Positions 20,442 to 58,497 of a stretch of 60,615 nucleotides of DNA are shown here, piece after piece. Below the pieces are notes generated by a model. That model had not been told where the DNA came from and did not search any database. It saw only the letters and a list, made by a program, of their open reading frames with translations. A program made the translations under genes and the position numbers. The stretch's first letter is position 1; every line of letters starts with the position of its first letter. The DNA comes from Desulfobacterales bacterium (GTDB lineage: Bacteria; Desulfobacterota; Desulfovibrionia; Desulfovibrionales; Desulfothermaceae). The stretch is taken from contig JAMOPG010000035.1 of the NCBI GenBank assembly GCA_027064715.1, forward strand, positions 1 to 60,615. Reading direction: 5' to 3'.

Positions 20442-21575
20442 CTATACACCCAATTTCTGAAAAACTATAGACAATACAGCATCAATAATTATCACTGTAA
20501 AAATCGTTGAAACTACACTTTTTGTAGTATTTATACCTAACTCCTCTGAATCTTTTTTTACACAAAATCCTCTAAAGCAAGATATCAAAACAATTGGCAT
20601 AGCAAATATAGGACCTTTTAAAATTCCTATAAAAAAAGAAGTTAAAGGCAGTGTAGTTTTTAACCTCACAATTAGAGTAGTCATATCCAGATTTAGAATG
20701 ATATTAGATAGATATATACCACTTGCTATTCCTACTACATCACATATAAAAATCAATAATGGCAGAACTATCATCATAGCGATTAATTTTGGAATAACCA
20801 ATAATTCTAAAGGATGTATTCCAATTATCTTTAATGAATCTATTTCCTGATTTAGGACCATTGAACCAATACTTGCTGTATAAGATGATCCTGATCTACC
20901 AGCTACCATAATTGCTGTTAATAATGGTGCCATTTCTCTTGTAATAGATAAGCTTATTAAATCTACAATAAAAATACTAGCTCCAAATCGACTAAGCTGA
21001 GTAGCACCTTGATAAGCTAAAACAATTCCCACTAACATTCCAACCAGTGCAACTATTAAAGTGGCATATACTCCTGTATATTCAATTTCATACAATATTT
21101 CTTTAATTCTAATCTTTTTAGGATTTAAAATAGTAATAAATATAACATTTATGATTTCTCCTAAATACGATAAAAAGCAAATAATTTCAAATATAATATC
21201 TACAAAATACTTTCCTATATTTTGTAAAAAATCTAATTTATTTCTTTTGGGAAATTTTAATTCAAGATCAACCTCTACTATATCCAATAAAGCTTTATAG
21301 TCTTGTTTTATGCCCTCAATAGATACATTGATTTTCTTTTTTTTAAAATTATTAATAATTTTTTTTATTAAATAAGCACCTGATATATCCATCTTTTGTA
21401 TATTGGAACAATCTATAATCAATTTTTCTTCTTTTAAATTTAATTTTTTAATCATATCTTTTATGTTATCTAAATTAGAGACTACCCAATGTCCTTTAAG
21501 AGATAAAATTGTATATCCTCCTTTGTTTTGAATACAATATATTTTTTGCGGGGTTTTTAACATAACTCTACCCAA
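20442..21575 (-). CDS. mlaE: STAS-MlaE permease fusion protein
   Basis: N-terminal STAS domain (LIIDCSNIQKMDISGAYLIKKI) followed by MlaE permease (QGATQLSRFGASIFIVDLISLSITREMAPLLTAIMVAGRSGSSYTASIGSM). Confidence 0.92.
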   Translation of the reverse strand: MGRVMLKTPQKIYCIQNKGGYTILSLKGHWVVSNLDNIKDMIKKLNLKEEKLIIDCSNIQKMDISGAYLIKKIINNFKKKKINVSIEGIKQDYKALLDIVEVDLELKFPKRNKLDFLQNIGKYFVDIIFEIICFLSYLGEIINVIFITILNPKKIRIKEILYEIEYTGVYATLIVALVGMLVGIVLAYQGATQLSRFGASIFIVDLISLSITREMAPLLTAIMVAGRSGSSYTASIGSMVLNQEIDSLKIIGIHPLELLVIPKLIAMMIVLPLLIFICDVVGIASGIYLSNIILNLDMTTLIVRLKTTLPLTSFFIGILKGPIFAMPIVLISCFRGFCVKKDSEELGINTTKSVVSTIFTVIIIDAVLSIVFQKLGV

Positions 21576-21615
21576 AAAATTGATAAAAAATTATTAATTT
21601 CAAATAGATAAAATC

Positions 21616-21644
21616 TTGAAATTAATATTTAAAAATGTTATTAT
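21616..21644 (+). promoter_or_regulatory. Sigma70-type promoter upstream of cobB-dnaA
   Basis: TTGAAA (21616-21621), 17-nt spacer, TATTAT (21639-21644), with TG at 21636-21637 forming an extended -10; lies in the divergent mlaE/cobB intergenic region. Confidence 0.55.
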
Positions 21645-21717
21645 TACAAATTAGTAGCGTTATATATATTTTTTTTAAAAAAATCAATGAGCAACTGAGA
21701 CTCAAAGGAGGGGATTT

Positions 21718-22461
21718 ATGGATGACAAATATTTCACAGGTGCAAAAATGTGGAAAGAGGCAAAATTCCCCATAGCTTTCACAGGTGCAGGTATTTCTGT
21801 TCCCAGTGGAATTCCTGATTTCAGAAGTCCAGGAGGAGTATGGACAAAATATGATCCCATGGAGGTGGCCACAGCTTCAGCAATAGAAAAAAATCCAAAA
21901 AAAGTATGGGATTTTATATTGGAAACTTCTGATCTTTTAGAAAAAGCTAAACCTAATCCTGCACATTATGCACTGGCAGAATTGGAGAAAGCTGGAAAGT
22001 TAATGGGTATTATTACCCAAAATATTGATAACTTACATCAAAGAGCAGGATCCAAGAATGTAGTGGAATACCATGGTAATTTTCAAAAATATTATTGTAA
22101 TAAATGTAGAGTAACTTATACCAAAGATGAAGTTAAAAAAATAATTTCCAATAAAATACCACCGTATTGCAAATGTGGAGGGGTAATAAGGCCAGATGTG
22201 GTATTTTTTGGTGAACCAATACCACAGAAAGCTATAATAGGTACCAATGACCTTTTAAATAAATGCGATTTGATTGTAGTTATAGGTACCTCTGGTGAAG
22301 TTTCTCCAGCTAATACGATCCCTAGAATAGTAAAAAGAAATGGCGGAAAAATGATAGAAATAAATCTAGGTCCTTCATACTATTATGATGTATCAGATGT
22401 AAAATTTAATGAATCTGCAGATATAGTCCTTCCAAAATTAAAAGATATTATTTTATCATGA
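21718..22461 (+). CDS. cobB: SIR2-family NAD-dependent protein deacylase
   Basis: FTGAGISVPSGIPDFRSPGGVWTKYDP; ITQNIDNLHQRAGS; YHGNF; zinc site CNKC...CKC; VVFFGEPIP. Confidence 0.94.
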   Translation: MDDKYFTGAKMWKEAKFPIAFTGAGISVPSGIPDFRSPGGVWTKYDPMEVATASAIEKNPKKVWDFILETSDLLEKAKPNPAHYALAELEKAGKLMGIITQNIDNLHQRAGSKNVVEYHGNFQKYYCNKCRVTYTKDEVKKIISNKIPPYCKCGGVIRPDVVFFGEPIPQKAIIGTNDLLNKCDLIVVIGTSGEVSPANTIPRIVKRNGGKMIEINLGPSYYYDVSDVKFNESADIVLPKLKDIILS

Positions 22462-23648
22462 AACACAAAGAGGAACTTGATTTATTTTTAAAAAAATTTT
22501 TTAAATCTATTATTGATAAAATTTTATGGAGATATAACGCAAAAAAAAGACAATTAATTATAATATGTCCTCATGAGTATTTCCAAGATTTTTTGAATCA
22601 AAATTATATTAAAAAGCTTAGAAAAAATTTAAAAGAAAGATATAATATACAAGATATTATTCTAAAAACAAACAGAGATCATTTTTTATATGGCGAAAAT
22701 TTAAATTTTCCTTTTAATCAAAACTTTACATTTGATAATTATTTTTATTCAAATGAAACAGAATCTACAATTAAACTAATTAAAGAAGTTATAAGAAAAA
22801 AAAATAAATATAATCCTGTAATAATATACGGAGAAAAAAATGCTGGAAAAACTCATATATTACATGCAATTGGCAATTTTTATATAACACATTTAAATAA
22901 AGATAAAATCTTGTTTTTAGATTTTAAAAATATAAATTTTTTGTTTAGAAAATATAGCTTTGAAGACTTAAAGAAAATAAAAATTTTCATAGTAGATCAT
23001 TTAGAATATTATAATATAAATAATGATAAAGAAAATATCCTTTTAAAAACTATAAAATATTTTTTAAATAGAAATGTAAAAATTTTCTTTAGTACAAAAA
23101 ATAGATTAGAAAATATAGTAAAATCTAAGGAGCTTTTTTCTTTACTCATGAGTGGAATTATTTTTAATCTAAGATTGCCAGATTTCAATACACGGATTGA
23201 ATTTATTAGGCATTATACAAATAAAAACAATATGTTAATTAATGAAAATCAAATATTTGATCTGGCTTTAAAACATAAAGATATTGGCTCAATAAAAAAA
23301 GAATTAAATAATATTTTGACTATAGGAACGACAAAAAGAGATAAAATATTAAAAAAAATACAAAATAAAACTCCTCAAAATATAATAAAATTAGTAAGTA
23401 AGCAACTCAATATCACAGAAAAAGATTTATTATCAAAGAATAATAAAAAACATATATCACTTGCAAGACATATAGCTATATATCTTTGTAGGGACATATT
23501 TAAATTATCAACTAAAAATTTAGAAAAGATATTTAATAGAAATCACAGCACCATACTATACTCAATAAAAAAAATTAATAAATTAAAGAAAGAAGATGAA
23601 AATGTTAATAAAATAGTAAATGAATTGTATAAAAAATGTAACTTATAG
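22458..23648 (+). CDS. dnaA: Divergent chromosomal replication initiator DnaA homologue
   Basis: NPVIIYGEKNAGKTHILHAIGNF (Walker A); KIFIVDHLEYY (degenerate Walker B); domain IV ISLARHIAIYLCRDIFKLSTKNLEKIFNRNHSTILYSIKKI; immediately upstream of dnaN-gyrB-gyrA. Confidence 0.88.
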   Translation: MKHKEELDLFLKKFFKSIIDKILWRYNAKKRQLIIICPHEYFQDFLNQNYIKKLRKNLKERYNIQDIILKTNRDHFLYGENLNFPFNQNFTFDNYFYSNETESTIKLIKEVIRKKNKYNPVIIYGEKNAGKTHILHAIGNFYITHLNKDKILFLDFKNINFLFRKYSFEDLKKIKIFIVDHLEYYNINNDKENILLKTIKYFLNRNVKIFFSTKNRLENIVKSKELFSLLMSGIIFNLRLPDFNTRIEFIRHYTNKNNMLINENQIFDLALKHKDIGSIKKELNNILTIGTTKRDKILKKIQNKTPQNIIKLVSKQLNITEKDLLSKNNKKHISLARHIAIYLCRDIFKLSTKNLEKIFNRNHSTILYSIKKINKLKKEDENVNKIVNELYKKCNL

Positions 23649-23718
23649 AATCTTTGAACAAAGCCGATTGAGTTAAGTTATAAATATATTTAATATGTTC
23701 ATTGTTTTCTACATATTT

Positions 23719-23745
23719 TTGTAAAAAATTTAAATGAGTTATAAT
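23719..23745 (+). promoter_or_regulatory. Candidate promoter upstream of dnaN
   Basis: TTGTAA (23719-23724), 15-nt spacer, perfect TATAAT (23740-23745). The short spacer lowers confidence. Confidence 0.4.
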
Positions 23746-23796
23746 ACTTTTTTACATAAAAACAATGTTTAAAATAAATAAAAAGGAGTAAAAAAA

Positions 23797-24969
23797 ATGC
23801 ATTTAATATTTAATAAGGAACAAATAATCAAAGGATTACAAAAAGCAGCAAGTATTTCATCTCAAAAATCAGGAACTACCTTTTTAAAGACAGTCTGGTT
23901 AAAATGGAATGAGGAAAGATTGCAAATATTAGCTACAGACTCAAAAATAGAATTTATAGCAGAATATGAAGTCAAAGCTCAGGAAGAAGGAATTGTGGGT
24001 ATAAATGGACGTTCCTTTTATGAACTCATAAAAAAATTACCTCCTGGTGAAATTACCATTTCTTTGGCAGAGGATGGAGAGTATATAAATTTGATACAAG
24101 GATCAAAAAAATATAAAATAATTACATATGAATCTTCTTGGTTTAGAGAATTTGTTGAGTTTCCAAATAAAGATTATGTAAAATGGTATGGTGACAATTT
24201 TAAAGAAGTAATTAATAGACTCTACTATTTTATACCAGATGATGTTAGTGATGATAATAAATATTTAAATCTGTGTAAATCTCACAAACCTAACCATATA
24301 GTTGCTTATGGAGTTATTTTACATAGCTTTGCAATGTTGACATTTGAACATAATGAGTTATATCAACATTTAGATGATAATCTATACTTAATTGACAAGA
24401 TGTTTTTAAATGAACTGAGAAAATGGCTAGAAAATAATGAAATATATTTGACTATTCATGAAAATAGAATTTTCATCAAAGATGAAGTCAATAATGAGAA
24501 AATAAGCTTTCCTGTTATTATAAAAAACGATGAAGATTATAATATCTATTTAGAGGCATTTAATAATACCAATCTTTCAACATTGATAGTAAATAGAAAA
24601 GAATTAATTGATGTACTAGAAAGGATATCAGTCTTTGCATCAGATATAGATGAATTAGTTACTTTTATTTTTAACAATGATAAATTATTAATACATTCAG
24701 AAGGACATAATAAAGGAGAAGCTACAGAAGAGATTTTAGTCAATTATTCTGGTCAAATAGATTCAGTCTTCTTTTTAATTAAAAGAACAAAACAAATTAT
24801 AGAACATTTTCATTCTGAAAATATAAAAATTGAATTTACTACATCTGATGGTCCCTGTAAAATAACAGGGCTTGATGAATCTGATAATGGTTATATTGTA
24901 GTCACTATGCCAGTAAGATTAAAAGAAGAAAAATATTATGAGGACGAGGTGATAGATAGCGATGAATAA
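23797..24969 (+). CDS. dnaN: DNA polymerase III sliding clamp beta subunit
   Basis: Clamp-like start (MHLIFNKEQIIKGLQKAASISSQKSGTTFLKTVWLKW...LATDSKIEF) and C-terminal VVTMPVRL; synteny dnaA-dnaN-gyrB. Confidence 0.92.
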   Translation: MHLIFNKEQIIKGLQKAASISSQKSGTTFLKTVWLKWNEERLQILATDSKIEFIAEYEVKAQEEGIVGINGRSFYELIKKLPPGEITISLAEDGEYINLIQGSKKYKIITYESSWFREFVEFPNKDYVKWYGDNFKEVINRLYYFIPDDVSDDNKYLNLCKSHKPNHIVAYGVILHSFAMLTFEHNELYQHLDDNLYLIDKMFLNELRKWLENNEIYLTIHENRIFIKDEVNNEKISFPVIIKNDEDYNIYLEAFNNTNLSTLIVNRKELIDVLERISVFASDIDELVTFIFNNDKLLIHSEGHNKGEATEEILVNYSGQIDSVFFLIKRTKQIIEHFHSENIKIEFTTSDGPCKITGLDESDNGYIVVTMPVRLKEEKYYEDEVIDSDE

Positions 24970-27388
24970 AAAACAAGAATCTAATTATACTGCTGAAAGT
25001 ATTACTGTTTTAGAAGGATTAAGTGCAGTCAGAAAAAGACCTGCCATGTATATTGGAAGTACAGATTTGGATGGTGTTCACCATCTTATTTATGAGGTGG
25101 TGGACAATAGTATTGATGAAGCCATGGCAGGATATTGTTCTAAAATTGAAATAACAATTCATGTAGATAATAGTATAACAGTAAAGGATAATGGAAGAGG
25201 TATACCTGTTGATATTCATCCTAAAGAAAAAAGACCTGCAGTAGAAGTTGTTTTAACTGTATTGCATGCAGGTGGTAAGTTTGATAATCGAACATATAAA
25301 GTTGCAGGTGGGCTACATGGAGTTGGTGTATCTGTTGTAAATGCCCTTTCTGAATATTTAGAAGTAACGATAAAAAGGGATGGAAAAAAGTATTATCAAA
25401 AATATTCAAGAGGTGTCCCAGTAACTGAATTGATTATCAAAGGAGATACAAACGAGACTGGAACTACAATACATTTTAGACCTGATGAGGAAATTTTTAA
25501 AAATATAAATGTAAATCATGAAACTTTGAGTAAAAGATTTGAAGAAATTGCATATTTAAATAGTGGATTAGAGATTATATTTATTGATGAAAGAGTATCA
25601 AAAAAAGAGGTATTTAAATTTGATGGAGGAATTTATTCCTTTGTCAAAAAACTAAATAAGACTTATAATCATATTCATTCCATAATTTATAATAAAAAAG
25701 AAATAAATGATGTTATTGTTGAATTCGCAATGCAATATACTGACTCATATAAGACAACACTATATAGTTTTGCAAACAATATTAGAACCAAAGATGGAGG
25801 GACCCATTTAAGTGGGTTTAAGGCTGCAGTTACAAAATCTATAAATAACTATTTAAAAAATTCTGATCTACCTAAAAGAATTAAATTAAAAGAAAGAATC
25901 CAAGGTGAAGATATATTAGAAGGCTTAACAGCTGTTATAAGTGTAAAACTTCCAAATCCACAATTTGAAGGTCAGACAAAGACAAAATTGGGAAATAGTG
26001 AAATAGCAGGCTATGTTCAAAGTGTGGTAAATGAGACTTTGATGAATTATTTCCAGGAAAATCCAAAAGATGTATTGAATATAATAGAAAAGGTGGTTGA
26101 AACAGCGAAGGCCAGAGAAGCAGCAAGGCGTGCTAGGGAGCTAGTCAAAAGAAAAAGTCTACTTACTGATACATTTCTTCCTGGAAAATTGACTGATTGT
26201 CAAAGTAAAAATCCAGAAGAAAGTGAACTATTTATTGTAGAGGGGGATTCTGCTGGAGGCTCAGCTAAGCAAGGGAGAGATCCGAAGTTTCAAGCAATTT
26301 TGCCTTTAAGGGGTAAAATCTTAAATGTTGAAAAGACCAATTTTGAAAAAATGCTAAAAAATAAAGAAATTCAAAGTCTAATCGCCGCACTTGGAGTAGG
26401 TATTGGTGAAGATGATTTAGATTTATCAAAACTGAGATATCATAAAATAATAATTATGACTGATGCAGATGTAGATGGCGCTCATATCAGGACCTTATTA
26501 CTCACATTTTTTTATAGAAATTACAGAGAATTAATAGAAAGGGGACATTTATATATAGCCCAGCCGCCTCTATATAGGGTCCATAAAGGTAAATTTGAAA
26601 AATTTATCAATAATGACAAAGAACTCTTAGAATTTTTTATTGAATCCATGAGTGAGGAAATAGAGGTTTTTGTTGATGAAAGAAAATTAATGAAAGATGA
26701 AGTCAAATTTATTATTAATAAAATAACTGAATTAGAAAACAAAATAAAAGATTCTACATCATTGGGGATATCTAGTAATATCTTATTAAATATATTATTA
26801 TATGATGAAGATTTACATCATGTTTTTATAAAAAAATATCATGATAATTATGATACTCTTAAGGATTCTGAAGAATTTCTAAAATTTTCACAATATATTA
26901 AACAGTTTGATTATGAGGTAGAAATTTTTACAAAGGATGATGACTATAAACGATTTTTTATTAAATTTATTGATAAAAACAAACATGAATTTATATTAGG
27001 GTTGGAATATTTTAATTCAAAGTTGTATAGAAATAGTTATAATTTAGTACAAGAGATAAAAAAATATAGTCCATCTTGTAAATTTAGAATTAAATATAAA
27101 GATTCAATTGAAATAGACAATGTTTTATTATTTGATTTAGTGGATAAAATTATAGATATTGCCCATCAAAATTATACAATACAACGCTACAAAGGTTTAG
27201 GTGAGATGAATCCTGAACAACTTTGGGAAACAACTATGAATACAAAAAAAAGACAACTTTTACAGGTTACAATAAATGAGGCGGAAGAGGCAAATGAATT
27301 ATTCAATAAGTTAATGGGTGACAAGGTTGAACCAAGAAGGGAATTTATAGAAAAAAATGCATTATTAGTAGAAAATCTCGATATATAA
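24962..27388 (+). CDS. gyrB: DNA gyrase subunit B
   Basis: EGLSAVRKRPAMYIGSTDLDGVHHLIYEVVDNSIDEAMAG; FIVEGDSAGGSAKQGRDPKFQAILPLRGKILNVEK; TDADVDGAHIRTLLLTFF; QRYKGLGEMNPEQLWETTM. Confidence 0.98.
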   Translation: MNKKQESNYTAESITVLEGLSAVRKRPAMYIGSTDLDGVHHLIYEVVDNSIDEAMAGYCSKIEITIHVDNSITVKDNGRGIPVDIHPKEKRPAVEVVLTVLHAGGKFDNRTYKVAGGLHGVGVSVVNALSEYLEVTIKRDGKKYYQKYSRGVPVTELIIKGDTNETGTTIHFRPDEEIFKNINVNHETLSKRFEEIAYLNSGLEIIFIDERVSKKEVFKFDGGIYSFVKKLNKTYNHIHSIIYNKKEINDVIVEFAMQYTDSYKTTLYSFANNIRTKDGGTHLSGFKAAVTKSINNYLKNSDLPKRIKLKERIQGEDILEGLTAVISVKLPNPQFEGQTKTKLGNSEIAGYVQSVVNETLMNYFQENPKDVLNIIEKVVETAKAREAARRARELVKRKSLLTDTFLPGKLTDCQSKNPEESELFIVEGDSAGGSAKQGRDPKFQAILPLRGKILNVEKTNFEKMLKNKEIQSLIAALGVGIGEDDLDLSKLRYHKIIIMTDADVDGAHIRTLLLTFFYRNYRELIERGHLYIAQPPLYRVHKGKFEKFINNDKELLEFFIESMSEEIEVFVDERKLMKDEVKFIINKITELENKIKDSTSLGISSNILLNILLYDEDLHHVFIKKYHDNYDTLKDSEEFLKFSQYIKQFDYEVEIFTKDDDYKRFFIKFIDKNKHEFILGLEYFNSKLYRNSYNLVQEIKKYSPSCKFRIKYKDSIEIDNVLLFDLVDKIIDIAHQNYTIQRYKGLGEMNPEQLWETTMNTKKRQLLQVTINEAEEANELFNKLMGDKVEPRREFIEKNALLVENLDI

Positions 27389-27411
27389 AAACATGTAATA
27401 GGAGAAGTTAG

Positions 27412-29823
27412 GTGACTAAAACAATATCTATAGAAGAGGAAATTAAGAAATCATATTTGGAATATTCCTTAAGTGTTATAATAGGAAGGGCAATTCCAGA
27501 TGTAAGAGACGGACTTAAGCCTGTTCATAGAAGAATTTTATATGCCATGTATGAATTGGGCAATTTTTACAATAAGCCATATAAAAAATCAGCAAGGATA
27601 GTGGGTGATGTAATTGGTAAATATCATCCCCATGGCGATGCAGCAGTATATGATGCCCTAGTTCGTATGGCTCAACCTTTTAATATGAGGGATCCCTTAA
27701 TAGATGGCCAGGGAAATTTCGGCTCAATTGACGGTGACGCTCCAGCAGCAATGAGGTATACTGAATGTAGAATGTCCAAAATAGCACATGAATTTATAGC
27801 TGATATAGAAAAGGATACTGTAGATTTTAGACCTAATTATGATAATTCCTTAAAAGAACCTGAAGTTTTACCAACTAAAATACCAAATTTAATTGTAAAC
27901 GGTGCATCTGGTATTGCTGTGGGAATGGCCACTAATATTCCACCTCATAATCTAGGTGAAGTGATAGATGGTATTTTATCATATATTGATAATCCAGATA
28001 TATCTATATCAGAACTTATGAAATTTATAAAAGGTCCAGATTTTCCAACAGGTGCATATGTATATGGAACAAAGGGTCTAAAAAATGCATATTTAATAGG
28101 TAAAGGTACAATAAAAATAAGAAGTAAGATACATGTAGAATCCAATAAAAAAGAAAATGAATCTATTGTAATTACAGAAATACCTTATGGTTTAAATAAA
28201 TCTAATTTATTGAAAAAAATTGCTGAATTAATTAATGAAAGTAAGATTGAAGGAATATCTGATTTAAGAGATGAATCTGATAGAAAAGGTATTAGAATTG
28301 TCATTGAATTAAAAAAAGGTGCATTAAGTGATATAGTAGTAAATAGACTTTATAAATACACTCCACTTGATACATCATTTGGTATTAATTTTCTATGTGT
28401 TGTAAATAATAGACCTAAACTCATTAATTTAAAAGAGTATATAGAGCTATTTGTCTCTTTTAGAAGAGAAATTGTTTTAAGAAGAACAAGATATGATTTA
28501 AAAAAAGCAGAACATAGGGCACACATATTAGAAGGTCTAAAAAAGGCCTTAGATCATATAGATGAAGTTATTAAGATCATACGATCATCAAAGACTCCAG
28601 CAGAAGCCAAACAAAACTTAATAGATCGCTTTGATTTTACTGAAATACAGAGTCAAGCAATATTGGATATGAAGCTGCAAAGACTGACAAATTTAGAAAG
28701 AGAAAAGATTATAGAAGAATACAGAGAAATACTTAAAAAGATAGAATTTTTAAATAGTATTCTAAATAATCCTGAGGTGTTAAAGAATGAGATAAAAAAG
28801 GAATTAATAGAAATTAAGGAAAAATACAGCACTCCAAGAAGGACTGTAATATTAGATCATGATCCAGATGAGATAGATATTGAAGATTTGATACCTGATG
28901 ATGAAGTTGTTATCACATTGACAAAAAGAGGTTATATAAAAAGGACACCTCTTACTCAATTTGGAAAGCAAAGAAGAGGAGGTAAAGGGATATCAGGCGC
29001 ACACTTGAGTGACTCCGACATTGTTCAAGATATCTTGATTGGTACAAATCATGAGAATCTATTGTTATTTACAAACAAAGGTAGGATGTTAGTTTTAAAG
29101 GTCTTTAATATCCCTGAGGCCAGTAAAAAGGCAAGGGGTGTTCATATATCAAATATGGTAACCCTAAATAAGGGTGAAGAGATTGCAACGGCATTAGTAC
29201 AAAGGGAAGAAAATGAGAAACAATATTATCTGTTTGTCACAAAAAAAGGGATAGTCAAAAAATCAAAAATAGCTCTATATAAAAATGTGAGAACATCGGG
29301 AATTATAGCAATAAATTTAAGGGAAAATGATGAATTAATATCAGTAAAAGAAGTTGATGATGATAATGAAATAATGCTTCTCACAAAATTTGGATTTGCT
29401 ATTAGGTTTAGTTGTGTAGAGGTCAGAGAAATGGGAAGAAATACAACAGGTGTAAAAGGTATTTCATTGAGGGATAATGATGAGGTGGTATCAGGTGTGG
29501 TTATTGATCCTGAAGAGGGGAACTATTTAATGACAATTACTGAATATGGAAGTGGAAAAAGGACTATAATTGATAATTATAGATTGCAAAGTCGAGGGGG
29601 AAAGGGTATCATTAATTTGAAACCCAATAAAAAAACAGGTTTTGTCGTAAAGGGATTAGTTGTAAAAGAAGATGATCAATTAATAATTTTAACTTTAAAT
29701 AATAAGTTGATAAGGATTGATGTAAAAGATGTAAATATATATAGTAGAAATGCTAGAGGTGTAAAATTGATTAATTTGGATCCAGGTGATAAAGTTATAA
29801 CCTTTGATAAGATTTCGTCATGA
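27412..29823 (+). CDS. gyrA: DNA gyrase subunit A
   Basis: [45 protein letters not shown]-terminal GyrA box [14 protein letters not shown] start at 27412 with upstream SD. Confidence 0.98.
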
Positions 29824-30815
29824 AAAAGATAATAGTATACAGTGAAAAACTAAAACAGGCTTTAAAAATAGTAAATAAGGTTGCAGCAACGAATTCAACA
29901 GTATTAGTTACTGGAGAATCAGGTACAGGAAAAGAACTTATTGTTAGAGAAATTCATAAAAGAAGTCATAGATCTAAAGGCCCTTTTGTACCAATAAATT
30001 GCGGTGCCATACCTAAGGAACTTATAGAATCTGAGTTGTTTGGTCATGAAAAAGGTGCTTTTACACATGCAATTAGGTCAAGACAAGGACGTTTTGAATT
30101 AGCAAATGGTGGTACTATTTTCTTAGATGAGGTTGGAGAATTGGATATTTATCTTCAGGTAAAGTTGCTTAGAGTCCTTCAAGAAAAGGAATTTGAGAGG
30201 GTAGGTGGAACAAAGACAATTAAAGTAGATGTGAGAATAGTTGCAGCAACTAACAAGGATTTAGAAGAGGAAGTAAAAAAAGGAAATTTCAGAGAAGATC
30301 TTTATTACAGATTGAATGTTGTAAATATATATATTCCACCTTTGAGGGAGAGAAAGGAAGATATTTTACCACTTGCGGACTATTTTTTAAAAAAATATTG
30401 TAAACTCAATAATAGAGAAGAATTAACTTTATCTAATGAGGTAAAAGAAATATTATTAAATTATAATTGGCCTGGAAATGTCAGGGAATTAGAAAATTTG
30501 ATGGAGAGATTTAGTATACTTTGTGAAAATAACAAGGTGACTGTGGAGGATGTTCCCTTAAAACTTTTAGAAAATACACAGAACACACAAGAATCAAAAG
30601 CCCTAACTTGTGATAATGAATTTATATTTCCAACGTTATCCACACTAAATAAGCTTAATCTAACACTAAAAGAGTTTTTAGAAGAAATAGAAAATAGGCT
30701 AATTTTAGAGGCCCTTAAAAAAAGTGGTGGTGTCAAAAACGAAGCTGCAAAATTACTGGGATTAAAACGTACTACTTTGATAGAAAAATTAAAGAAAAAA
30801 AAATTATTGGTATAA
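29820..30815 (+). CDS. Sigma54-dependent transcriptional activator without receiver domain
   Basis: [24 protein letters not shown] loop (variant of GAFTGA); [21 protein letters not shown]; Fis [24 protein letters not shown]. Confidence 0.92.
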
Positions 30816-30872
30816 TATTTGCTTAATTCTTTACTGTAAGGAAAATTATCATGTGAATAATAGGTTTAGATA

Positions 30873-45258: not shown

Positions 45259-46149
45259 GTGTTAAAAAGACCGAAACAAGAGATCAGGATTAACACAAGA
45301 TATCATGGCAAAAAGCTGTTTCAATTTTTAGATGAATTTTTGGAGAAAAAGATCCCCAAATCTGCCCTTATGAAATGGATTAGAAAAGGGGCAGTTAGAG
45401 TTGATGGAAAGAAATTCAAACCCTTTGATAGAGTATTTAAAGGTCAAGTTGTCACAATTCCTTCGCATGAATTAGAGGACACAACAAAAATAGATACCAA
45501 GTCTCAAAATCCTTTTTTAATCAAAAAGATCTATGAAGACGATGAGATTTTGGTTTTGTATAAGCCACCTAATCTTCCTACCCAACCTGGAAAAGGGGTA
45601 AATGATAGTCTTTATCAAAGATTGAAAAATCATTACCAAAAAGACACCCCATATCTCGTGCACAGGCTGGATAAAGAGACATCAGGATTAATTGTGACTG
45701 CAAAAACTTATAGTGCGCTTCATAAGTTACAACAACTTTTTAAAAAAAGGGAAATTACTAAAGTATATCTTGCGTGGGTAATAGGAACTACCCATTTTGA
45801 TAAATGGACAAAGATTGAGCATGAATTTGAAGAGGAGAGAGATAATAAGAAAAAATATGTTAAAGCCAGAAGTTATATAATTACGTTGGTGAATAAAGGA
45901 AATAATAGCTTATTGGGAATATGTTTGGTAACAGGGAGAAAACATCAGATAAGGATCCAACTATCCAAAATGGGTCATCCCATAGTTGGAGAAAAGAAGT
46001 ATGGAAATATCCCCAGTACTCAGGGGCTTTTGTTACATGCTTATTTACTTACATGGGAAGATAAATTATTTGTGTGTAATCCACCCTGGATGCGAAAATT
46101 TATGATAAAAGATGAGTTTTTAAAAAAAATTTTTCCCCTTCCAAAATGA
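45259..46149 (+). CDS. RluA family pseudouridine synthase
   Basis: S4-like N-terminus; LVHRLDKETSGLIVTAKT; VTGRKHQIRIQLSKMGHPIVGEKKYG. GTG start. Confidence 0.95.
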   Translation: MLKRPKQEIRINTRYHGKKLFQFLDEFLEKKIPKSALMKWIRKGAVRVDGKKFKPFDRVFKGQVVTIPSHELEDTTKIDTKSQNPFLIKKIYEDDEILVLYKPPNLPTQPGKGVNDSLYQRLKNHYQKDTPYLVHRLDKETSGLIVTAKTYSALHKLQQLFKKREITKVYLAWVIGTTHFDKWTKIEHEFEEERDNKKKYVKARSYIITLVNKGNNSLLGICLVTGRKHQIRIQLSKMGHPIVGEKKYGNIPSTQGLLLHAYLLTWEDKLFVCNPPWMRKFMIKDEFLKKIFPLPK

Positions 46150-57258: not shown

Positions 57259-58497
57259 ATGAGAAATTTTAGGAGCTTCAGGATCACAACAAAGGATGAA
57301 CTTACTTTTTTTGCAGAGGAAGTCTTAAACTTAGAGGGCTTTTTTGTTAAAAAGCTTTCCTTTTACGATCGTGCCAGGATATGTCTAGATAAGAGACTAG
57401 ATATAGGAAATTCCCTTTTAAATCGTTTTGGTCATATATATATTCAAGATCTATCATCTATGCTTCCACCACTTATGCTTGCTCCAAAAAAAGGGGCATT
57501 GGTTTTGGACCTTTGTGCCAGCCCTGGTGGAAAGGGCTCTATCTTGAGTGAGTTAGTTGGATCTTACGGTATAGTGGTTGCCAATGAGCCTGTTAAAAAG
57601 AGATATATGACATTAAAAAAAAATATTGAGCGCTTAAATCTTTTTAATGTAGTAACCACCTGCTATAAAGGAGAAGAATATCCAGAAACCACATTATTTG
57701 ACTATGTACTTCTTGATGTGCCTTGCAGTGGTTGGGGTACTGCTGATAAAAATCCCACAGTATTAAAATTATGGCAAGGCAATAGATTAGAGCCATTGAT
57801 TAAATTACAAAGGAGGCTACTCAAAAAAGGTTTTTCTTTATTAAAACCAGGTGGCAAATTAATATACTCCACATGCACAACAAATTTCGCAGAAAATCAA
57901 CAGCAGATTATGTGGGCATTAAAGGAGTTTTCTTTTGATCTTATTCCTTTACACCCAGTGGATGGTTTTTCATATGATCCAGAAAATCCCATGCCTGAAA
58001 CTTTGGCCATTAGAGGGCATAGATATTATTCACAGGGATTTTTCATAGCTTGTTTAGAAAAAAAAGAAACAATACCCAGTAGCACCACATCTTTTAGTAA
58101 ATTAAATTCTCATAAGCAGTTCATAAACCAATGCATGATTTTTGATTATCTTACAGATTTAGGTCTAGATTGTTCAGAAATATCCCATGGCCTTTTTTAT
58201 AGGGTCAATGAAAATGTTTTTTATTTGCCCATGGTGTTTGAAAATTTGATAAGTGAAGGCCTTTTTATAGGAAGACTAAAAAAAGACAGGTTTATCCCAA
58301 GTTTAAATCTTTGGAAATTAATGAATAAAAATATGAAAAATGTAATTCAAGTTGATAATATTAATGAGATTAAAAGGTTATTAAATGGAGAAAGTTTGAA
58401 TGTCTCATCGAATAATAAGTATTTACAACTTTTTTTTAAAGACCTTCCTTTATGCCTGGTTTCTGTTAAAAATGGAAGGTGTTTGATAACAAGGTAG
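57259..58497 (+). CDS. RsmB/NOP family rRNA C5-cytosine methyltransferase
   Basis: YIQDLSSMLPPLMLAPKKGALVLDLCASPGGKGSILSEL; DVPCSGWGT; LKPGGKLIYSTCT. Confidence 0.93.
   Translation: MRNFRSFRITTKDELTFFAEEVLNLEGFFVKKLSFYDRARICLDKRLDIGNSLLNRFGHIYIQDLSSMLPPLMLAPKKGALVLDLCASPGGKGSILSELVGSYGIVVANEPVKKRYMTLKKNIERLNLFNVVTTCYKGEEYPETTLFDYVLLDVPCSGWGTADKNPTVLKLWQGNRLEPLIKLQRRLLKKGFSLLKPGGKLIYSTCTTNFAENQQQIMWALKEFSFDLIPLHPVDGFSYDPENPMPETLAIRGHRYYSQGFFIACLEKKETIPSSTTSFSKLNSHKQFINQCMIFDYLTDLGLDCSEISHGLFYRVNENVFYLPMVFENLISEGLFIGRLKKDRFIPSLNLWKLMNKNMKNVIQVDNINEIKRLLNGESLNVSSNNKYLQLFFKDLPLCLVSVKNGRCLITR

Follow-up and report, generated by a model that had tools for sequence, protein, structure and literature searches.

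Background

The bacterial initiator DnaA is usually encoded by a single-copy gene, and the ATP switch of DnaA is customarily presented as the master timer of replication in bacteria. Domain I of DnaA binds the helicase. Hda, a DnaA-related regulator of DnaA, is devoid of domain IV, and the clamp loader subunits delta and delta' as well as some ORC subunits retain the AAA+ fold while having lost catalytic residues. Two dnaA genes on one chromosome have been documented in the Chlamydiales, where neither dnaA of Waddlia is located at the skew minimum (PMC2878342), and in Acidaminococcus, where both copies belong to one gene cluster at oriC (PMC4403523). The window analysed here, a stretch of 60,615 nucleotides from a MAG of the Desulfohalobiaceae (Desulfovibrionales), comes from a genome that likewise encodes two DnaAs but, unlike those of Waddlia and Acidaminococcus, has an eroding copy at the origin and a conserved copy remote from it. 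No description of a two-DnaA system in Desulfovibrionales was found in the open-access literature, to which our search was largely confined, with subscription papers mostly outside it.

The dnaA1 locus and its product

The gene order in the window is sir2-dnaA1-dnaN-gyrB-gyrA, followed by a sigma54 regulator. The dnaA1 gene (positions 22458..23648, + strand) encodes a DnaA paralogue of 396 aminoacids (P0001), for which all four DnaA domains are predicted. The preceding gene, which codes for a sir2/CobB-type NAD-dependent deacylase (21718..22461, + strand), ends in a stop codon that shares 4 bp (ATGA) with the start of dnaA1. Downstream lie dnaN (23797..24969, + strand; PF00712/PF02768, with a TIGR00663 score of 118 bits that is below the cut-off of 137.65), gyrB (24962..27388, + strand; above the TIGR01059 cut-off and the sole copy in the MAG) and gyrA (27412..29823, + strand; above the TIGR01063 cut-off). 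The sir2 gene adjoins dnaA1 in all Desulfohalobiaceae loci seen and was not found at the dnaA1 or dnaN loci of other Desulfovibrionales families. The same genome has a second sir2, 42% identical (G000:C245:4496-5173), which is either a paralogue or part of the 4.8% contamination of the assembly, and a second, weak DnaN-like match (29% identity; G000:C217:26113-26499), likewise a paralogue or contamination.

The preliminary description of this DNA, made from the letters and translations, recognized in 22458-23648 a DnaA homologue with Walker A and domain IV, and profiles, alignments and fold comparisons agree. P0001 matches PF00308 (Bac_DnaA; 43.1 bits) and PF08299 (Bac_DnaA_C; 75 bits), both above cut-off, and has in common with bacterial DnaA (TIGR00362; E. 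coli, B. subtilis, Aquifex) the four domains, the Walker A motif, the helix-turn-helix of domain IV and the dnaA-dnaN-gyrB-gyrA location. The AlphaFold2 model (mean pLDDT 80.6, pTM 0.59) predicts that a complete four-domain DnaA fold is retained, and the best eleven matches in a fold search of the PDB are all DnaA. The DnaA-box-binding domain IV (23373..23576, + strand), which scores 78.2 bits against PF08299, is the most conserved portion of the protein and is modelled with a pLDDT of ~90-95. However, the score of P0001 against the TIGR00362 equivalog profile is 141.8 bits, far below the cut-off of 343.9. Like Hda, it is a DnaA paralogue with a match to the Hda profile, but this match is weak (52 bits against a cut-off of 194.8), and P0001 differs from Hda in keeping domain IV and in its position at the origin. 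It also resembles the degenerate AAA+ subunits in keeping the AAA+ fold with its catalytic residues lost, though for DnaA1 a defined hetero-oligomer would be hypothetical. An assembly error or a pseudogene was considered and rejected, as the window copy bears no sign of either; a phage or plasmid source was rejected given only ~22-26% identity among the matches listed and the conserved chromosomal synteny.

Loss of the ATP-switch residues

Residues of P0001 were mapped by phmmer to the DnaA structures of Aquifex, Thermotoga and B. subtilis, and by a MAFFT alignment with relatives in which residue numbers follow E. coli K-12 DnaA (NC_000913); the substitutions agree between these independent alignments. 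The Walker A motif GEKNAGKTH (residues 125-133; 22830..22856, + strand) keeps Lys131, the equivalent of E. coli K178. In the Walker B motif IFIVDHLEYY (residues 176-185; 22983..23012, + strand), D235 is kept as D180 and D236 is replaced by H181 (His codon at 22998-23000). The arginine-finger segment SKELFSLLMSGI (residues 223-234; 23124..23159, + strand) has Leu229 at the position of R285, and sensor II, DIGSIKKEL (residues 275-283; 23280..23306, + strand), has Gly277 at that of R334. P0001 thus keeps the Walker A loop but, unlike bacterial DnaA, has no complete Walker B Asp pair, its catalytic residue being lost, and is without the arginine finger and the sensor II Arg; a second DnaA is encoded elsewhere in the genome. 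The retained Walker A and these three substitutions had all been proposed in the preliminary description and hold in both alignments; its estimate that the stretch before Walker B is about 8 residues shorter is also borne out: counted from VVYMHSERF, the stretch has 35 residues in P0001, 43 in E. coli and 37-41 in the other DnaA1 proteins shown.

For domain IV, the substitutions described earlier are real (D433 to N362, T435 to S364), but the altered DnaA-box reader that had been read from them is a weak argument, since such changes are common in relatives: most canonical DnaAs of the Desulfobacterota have Ser at T435, and GG is likewise absent ahead of NR in every DnaA2. We suggest that DnaA1 of the window lineage would bind DNA and might bind ATP, and would neither hydrolyse ATP nor convey a nucleotide signal to a neighbouring subunit.

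A second DnaA and its distribution in Desulfovibrionales

The preliminary description had raised the possibility of a repurposed paralogue with a canonical dnaA located elsewhere, and a genome-wide profile search for a second DnaA supports it. In the MAG (2.1 Mb, 249 contigs, 93.4% complete, 4.8% contamination), PF00308 and PF08299 each match exactly two sites, namely the window and contig C207. The protein on C207, DnaA2, has 461 aminoacids and scores 377.8 bits against TIGR00362, above the cut-off that the 141.8 bits of P0001 fail to reach. Contig C207 is collinear with contig C87 of the same-genus genome G003, with identities mostly of 63-82%, and is therefore unlikely to be a stray contaminant. 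The nearest named relatives of this DnaA2 are from Desulfohalobiaceae MAGs, followed by other Desulfovibrionales. Given the completeness and contamination of the assembly, a third DnaA is conceivable.

PF00308 was matched in all but one of 61 related genomes (60/61), and that one, G008, is 53% complete; a strong match, corresponding to DnaA2, is found in most of the 61 and a weaker second match in many. DnaA2 is near-universal across Desulfovibrionales. All 20 second copies that were fetched are at dnaN-gyrB-gyrA wherever the contig extends that far, whereas dnaA1 is missing from 15 other dnaN loci, at which the DnaA1 profile detects no remnant; among them are all seven f4 family genomes in which this locus was examined. 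On the DnaA2 tree, parsimony requires at least four changes between presence and absence of dnaA1, which has been lost repeatedly, at least four times, in Desulfovibrionales. Other Desulfobacterota mostly have one DnaA. In a quick tree with long branches, whose internal branching is unsure, DnaA1 and DnaA2 are each monophyletic (SH-aLRT 100) and are set apart by long stems from the canonical DnaAs of other Desulfobacterota; P0001 belongs to DnaA1 by its position in that clade (21 rows, SH-aLRT 100) and by the dnaN-gyrBA synteny.

The universality and conservation of DnaA2 and the repeated loss of DnaA1 point to DnaA2 as the most likely initiator. We hypothesize that of the two DnaA lineages of Desulfovibrionales, DnaA2, encoded away from the origin, performs initiation, and that DnaA1, which has stayed at the old dnaA-dnaN-gyrBA locus, is a paralogue that the cell can dispense with, subject to purifying selection that has relaxed, and is on its way to loss. 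The window DnaA1 then most likely persists as a non-switching, DNA-binding accessory of the origin region or as a titrator of DnaA2. We place the probability of this reading as a whole at roughly 0.68.

Erosion and evolutionary rate of DnaA1

Of 21 DnaA1 proteins, 17 retain the second Asp of Walker B and three have Asn instead, His being seen only in the window. The finger Arg is present in 19 of the 21, the exceptions being the window and G044. Most DnaA1 proteins of the Desulfohalobiaceae, the family of the window, are without the sensor II Arg, as are those of G024 and G044. Only the window copy (1/21) lacks all three at once, namely the acidic residue at this Walker B position, the finger Arg and the sensor II Arg. 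Three species of genus g5 have a DnaA1 of 332-351 aminoacids that has also lost domain I. The proviso in the preliminary description that such substitutions might prove ordinary in relatives thus holds in part: substitutions of the same kinds do occur, but as a graded erosion and not as the family norm. None of the seven other DnaA1 proteins tested reaches the TIGR00362 cut-off, while all three DnaA2 proteins tested do.

DnaA1 distances are a median of 2.5 times the DnaA2 distances over 105 genome pairs, and for the closest pair (G009-G010) dN/dS is 0.29 for DnaA1, 0.06 for DnaA2 and 0.05 for GyrB. For the window dnaA1 compared with fragments from the same-genus draft G001, a frame-broken and hence poor partner, pN is 0.34-0.38 and pS is 0.62-0.63. 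These values are signs of relaxed but purifying selection on the window DnaA1. In G001 (loci L073, L074, L075), frame breaks affect almost all genes examined, with uncorrected sequencing errors as the probable cause; its dnaA1 looks broken as well, most likely for reasons of assembly, since gyrA, gyrB, dnaN and sir2 of this draft are likewise broken.

The main rival to DnaA2 as initiator with DnaA1 as an accessory or titrator is that DnaA1 is essentially dead, having become non-functional so recently that its frame is not yet broken. The window protein is among the longest-branched and lowest-scoring of the DnaA1 set, and the repeated losses of dnaA1 in the order would fit such a fate. However, its reading frame is intact over 396 codons in a genome of 31% GC and overlaps sir2 in an operon-like manner, domain IV is well conserved, the predicted fold is confident, and pN is lower than pS against G001. 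We regard a dead gene as unlikely, though as the strongest of the alternatives.

The arginine finger of DnaA2

DnaA2 of the window genome has Tyr at the finger position (SYF) and Glu in place of the first Walker B Asp. With the finger absent from both proteins, no DnaA with a canonical finger was detected in this genome. Among 80 named Desulfovibrionales DnaA2 proteins (loci L197-L276), 44 have Arg as the finger residue and the other 36 have Cys, His, Tyr, Gln or Ser; all 80 retain the Arg of sensor II. In family f4, where DnaA2 is the only DnaA found, the finger is Gln in 4/4 sequences read. These departures in DnaA2 count against its being the initiator. On the other hand, an R285A DnaA is reported to be able to initiate at an E. 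coli oriC that has been engineered (Grimwade et al. 2018, reviewed in PMC6727663), so a missing finger need not be lethal. The suggestion in the preliminary description that initiation here may proceed without the canonical ATP switch is thus not established by P0001, but it gains indirect support from the finger-less DnaA2.

DnaA1 and DnaA2 might instead form mixed oligomers in which each supplies the part that the other has lost, in the manner of the degenerate AAA+ subunits of clamp loaders and ORC. Other Desulfohalobiaceae are suggestive in this respect, since the finger Arg persists in their DnaA1, mostly without the sensor II Arg, and their DnaA2 shows the reverse. Yet the finger is missing from both proteins of the window genome, and family f4 has a finger-less DnaA2 and no DnaA1, which indicates that a finger in trans is not generally required. 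We thus consider mixed oligomers highly improbable, and the specific proposal that DnaA1 provides its arginine finger in trans to DnaA2 was rejected as contradicted by the window and by f4.

It is also conceivable, if doubtful, that neither DnaA of the order needs the canonical ATP/arginine-finger switch. In several families DnaA2 would then initiate with no finger, next to a DnaA1 at the origin that would be nucleotide-locked or nucleotide-indifferent and act as its partner; in Desulfohalobiaceae, nucleotide binding by DnaA1 would perhaps be governed by acetylation of the kept Walker A lysine and deacetylation by the adjacent CobB-type sirtuin. E. coli CobB has been reported to deacetylate the Walker A lysine K178 of DnaA (PMC4971506), and by analogy a functional link between the kept lysine of DnaA1 and the CobB-type sirtuin encoded beside it may be entertained, speculatively. 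Within a single order there is a graded natural series, in which DnaA1 ranges from intact through eroding to absent and DnaA2 either has or lacks the arginine finger. Whether ATP-DnaA filaments are mandatory, an open question (PMC6727663), could be tested with such natural proteins, some of them from cultivable Desulfovibrio relatives.

Position of the replication origin and DnaA boxes

Strand-corrected GC3 skew changes from minus to plus in a replication-origin zone at 21500..29500 of the window (no strand assigned), with the best break at ~25.3 kb. The break, which lies between dnaN and gyrB, has an R2 gain of 0.51 and was equalled in none of 500 permutations, and the origin therefore appears still to be at the dnaA1 locus. 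By sampled whole-chromosome skew, G045 and G049 have their origin at dnaA1-dnaN or close to it, in G017 it is ~0.3 Mb off, and in G018, where dnaA1 has been lost, it is ~0.6 Mb from dnaN. DnaA2 is at the skew origin in none of these four genomes. In G018, the skew-defined origin (2.24-2.34 Mb) is remote from both dnaN and dnaA2.

As the origin seems to have stayed at dnaA1, DnaA1 could still act there, which counts against DnaA2 as the initiator. DnaA1 might accordingly be supposed to remain the initiator without an ATP switch, DnaA2 being otherwise employed, for example in transcription control; this is favoured by the skew, which puts the origin of the window at dnaA1 and those of G045 and G049 close to that gene, and the finger mutant that initiates on a modified E. 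coli oriC (PMC6727663) lends it plausibility. Nevertheless, many relatives have DnaA2 and no DnaA1, DnaA2 evolves like a housekeeping gene, and DnaA1 of genus g5 is without the helicase-binding domain I. An initiating DnaA1 is accordingly improbable, more so than a dead gene, though less remote than mixed oligomers.

The sole perfect DnaA box in the window, TTATCCACA, is at 30636..30644 (+ strand), and a box scan also gave the near box TTATTCACA at 30852..30860 (- strand). Near boxes are at chance level (21 in the window against 23 expected). An E. coli-type DnaA-box cluster marking oriC by dnaA1 or dnaA2 was rejected, none being present in the window or in 40 locus stretches from relatives, apart from a possible weak enrichment of boxes around the skew switch in G017 and G045. 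Close to that switch, these two complete genomes have a divergent pair of genes for homologues of a pseudouridine synthase and an RsmB/F-type methyltransferase (L293:2373-4530 and L287:834-2958). The counterparts of this pair in the window are at 45259-46149 (pseudouridine synthase) and 57259-58497 (RsmB/F-type methyltransferase), 11 kb apart.
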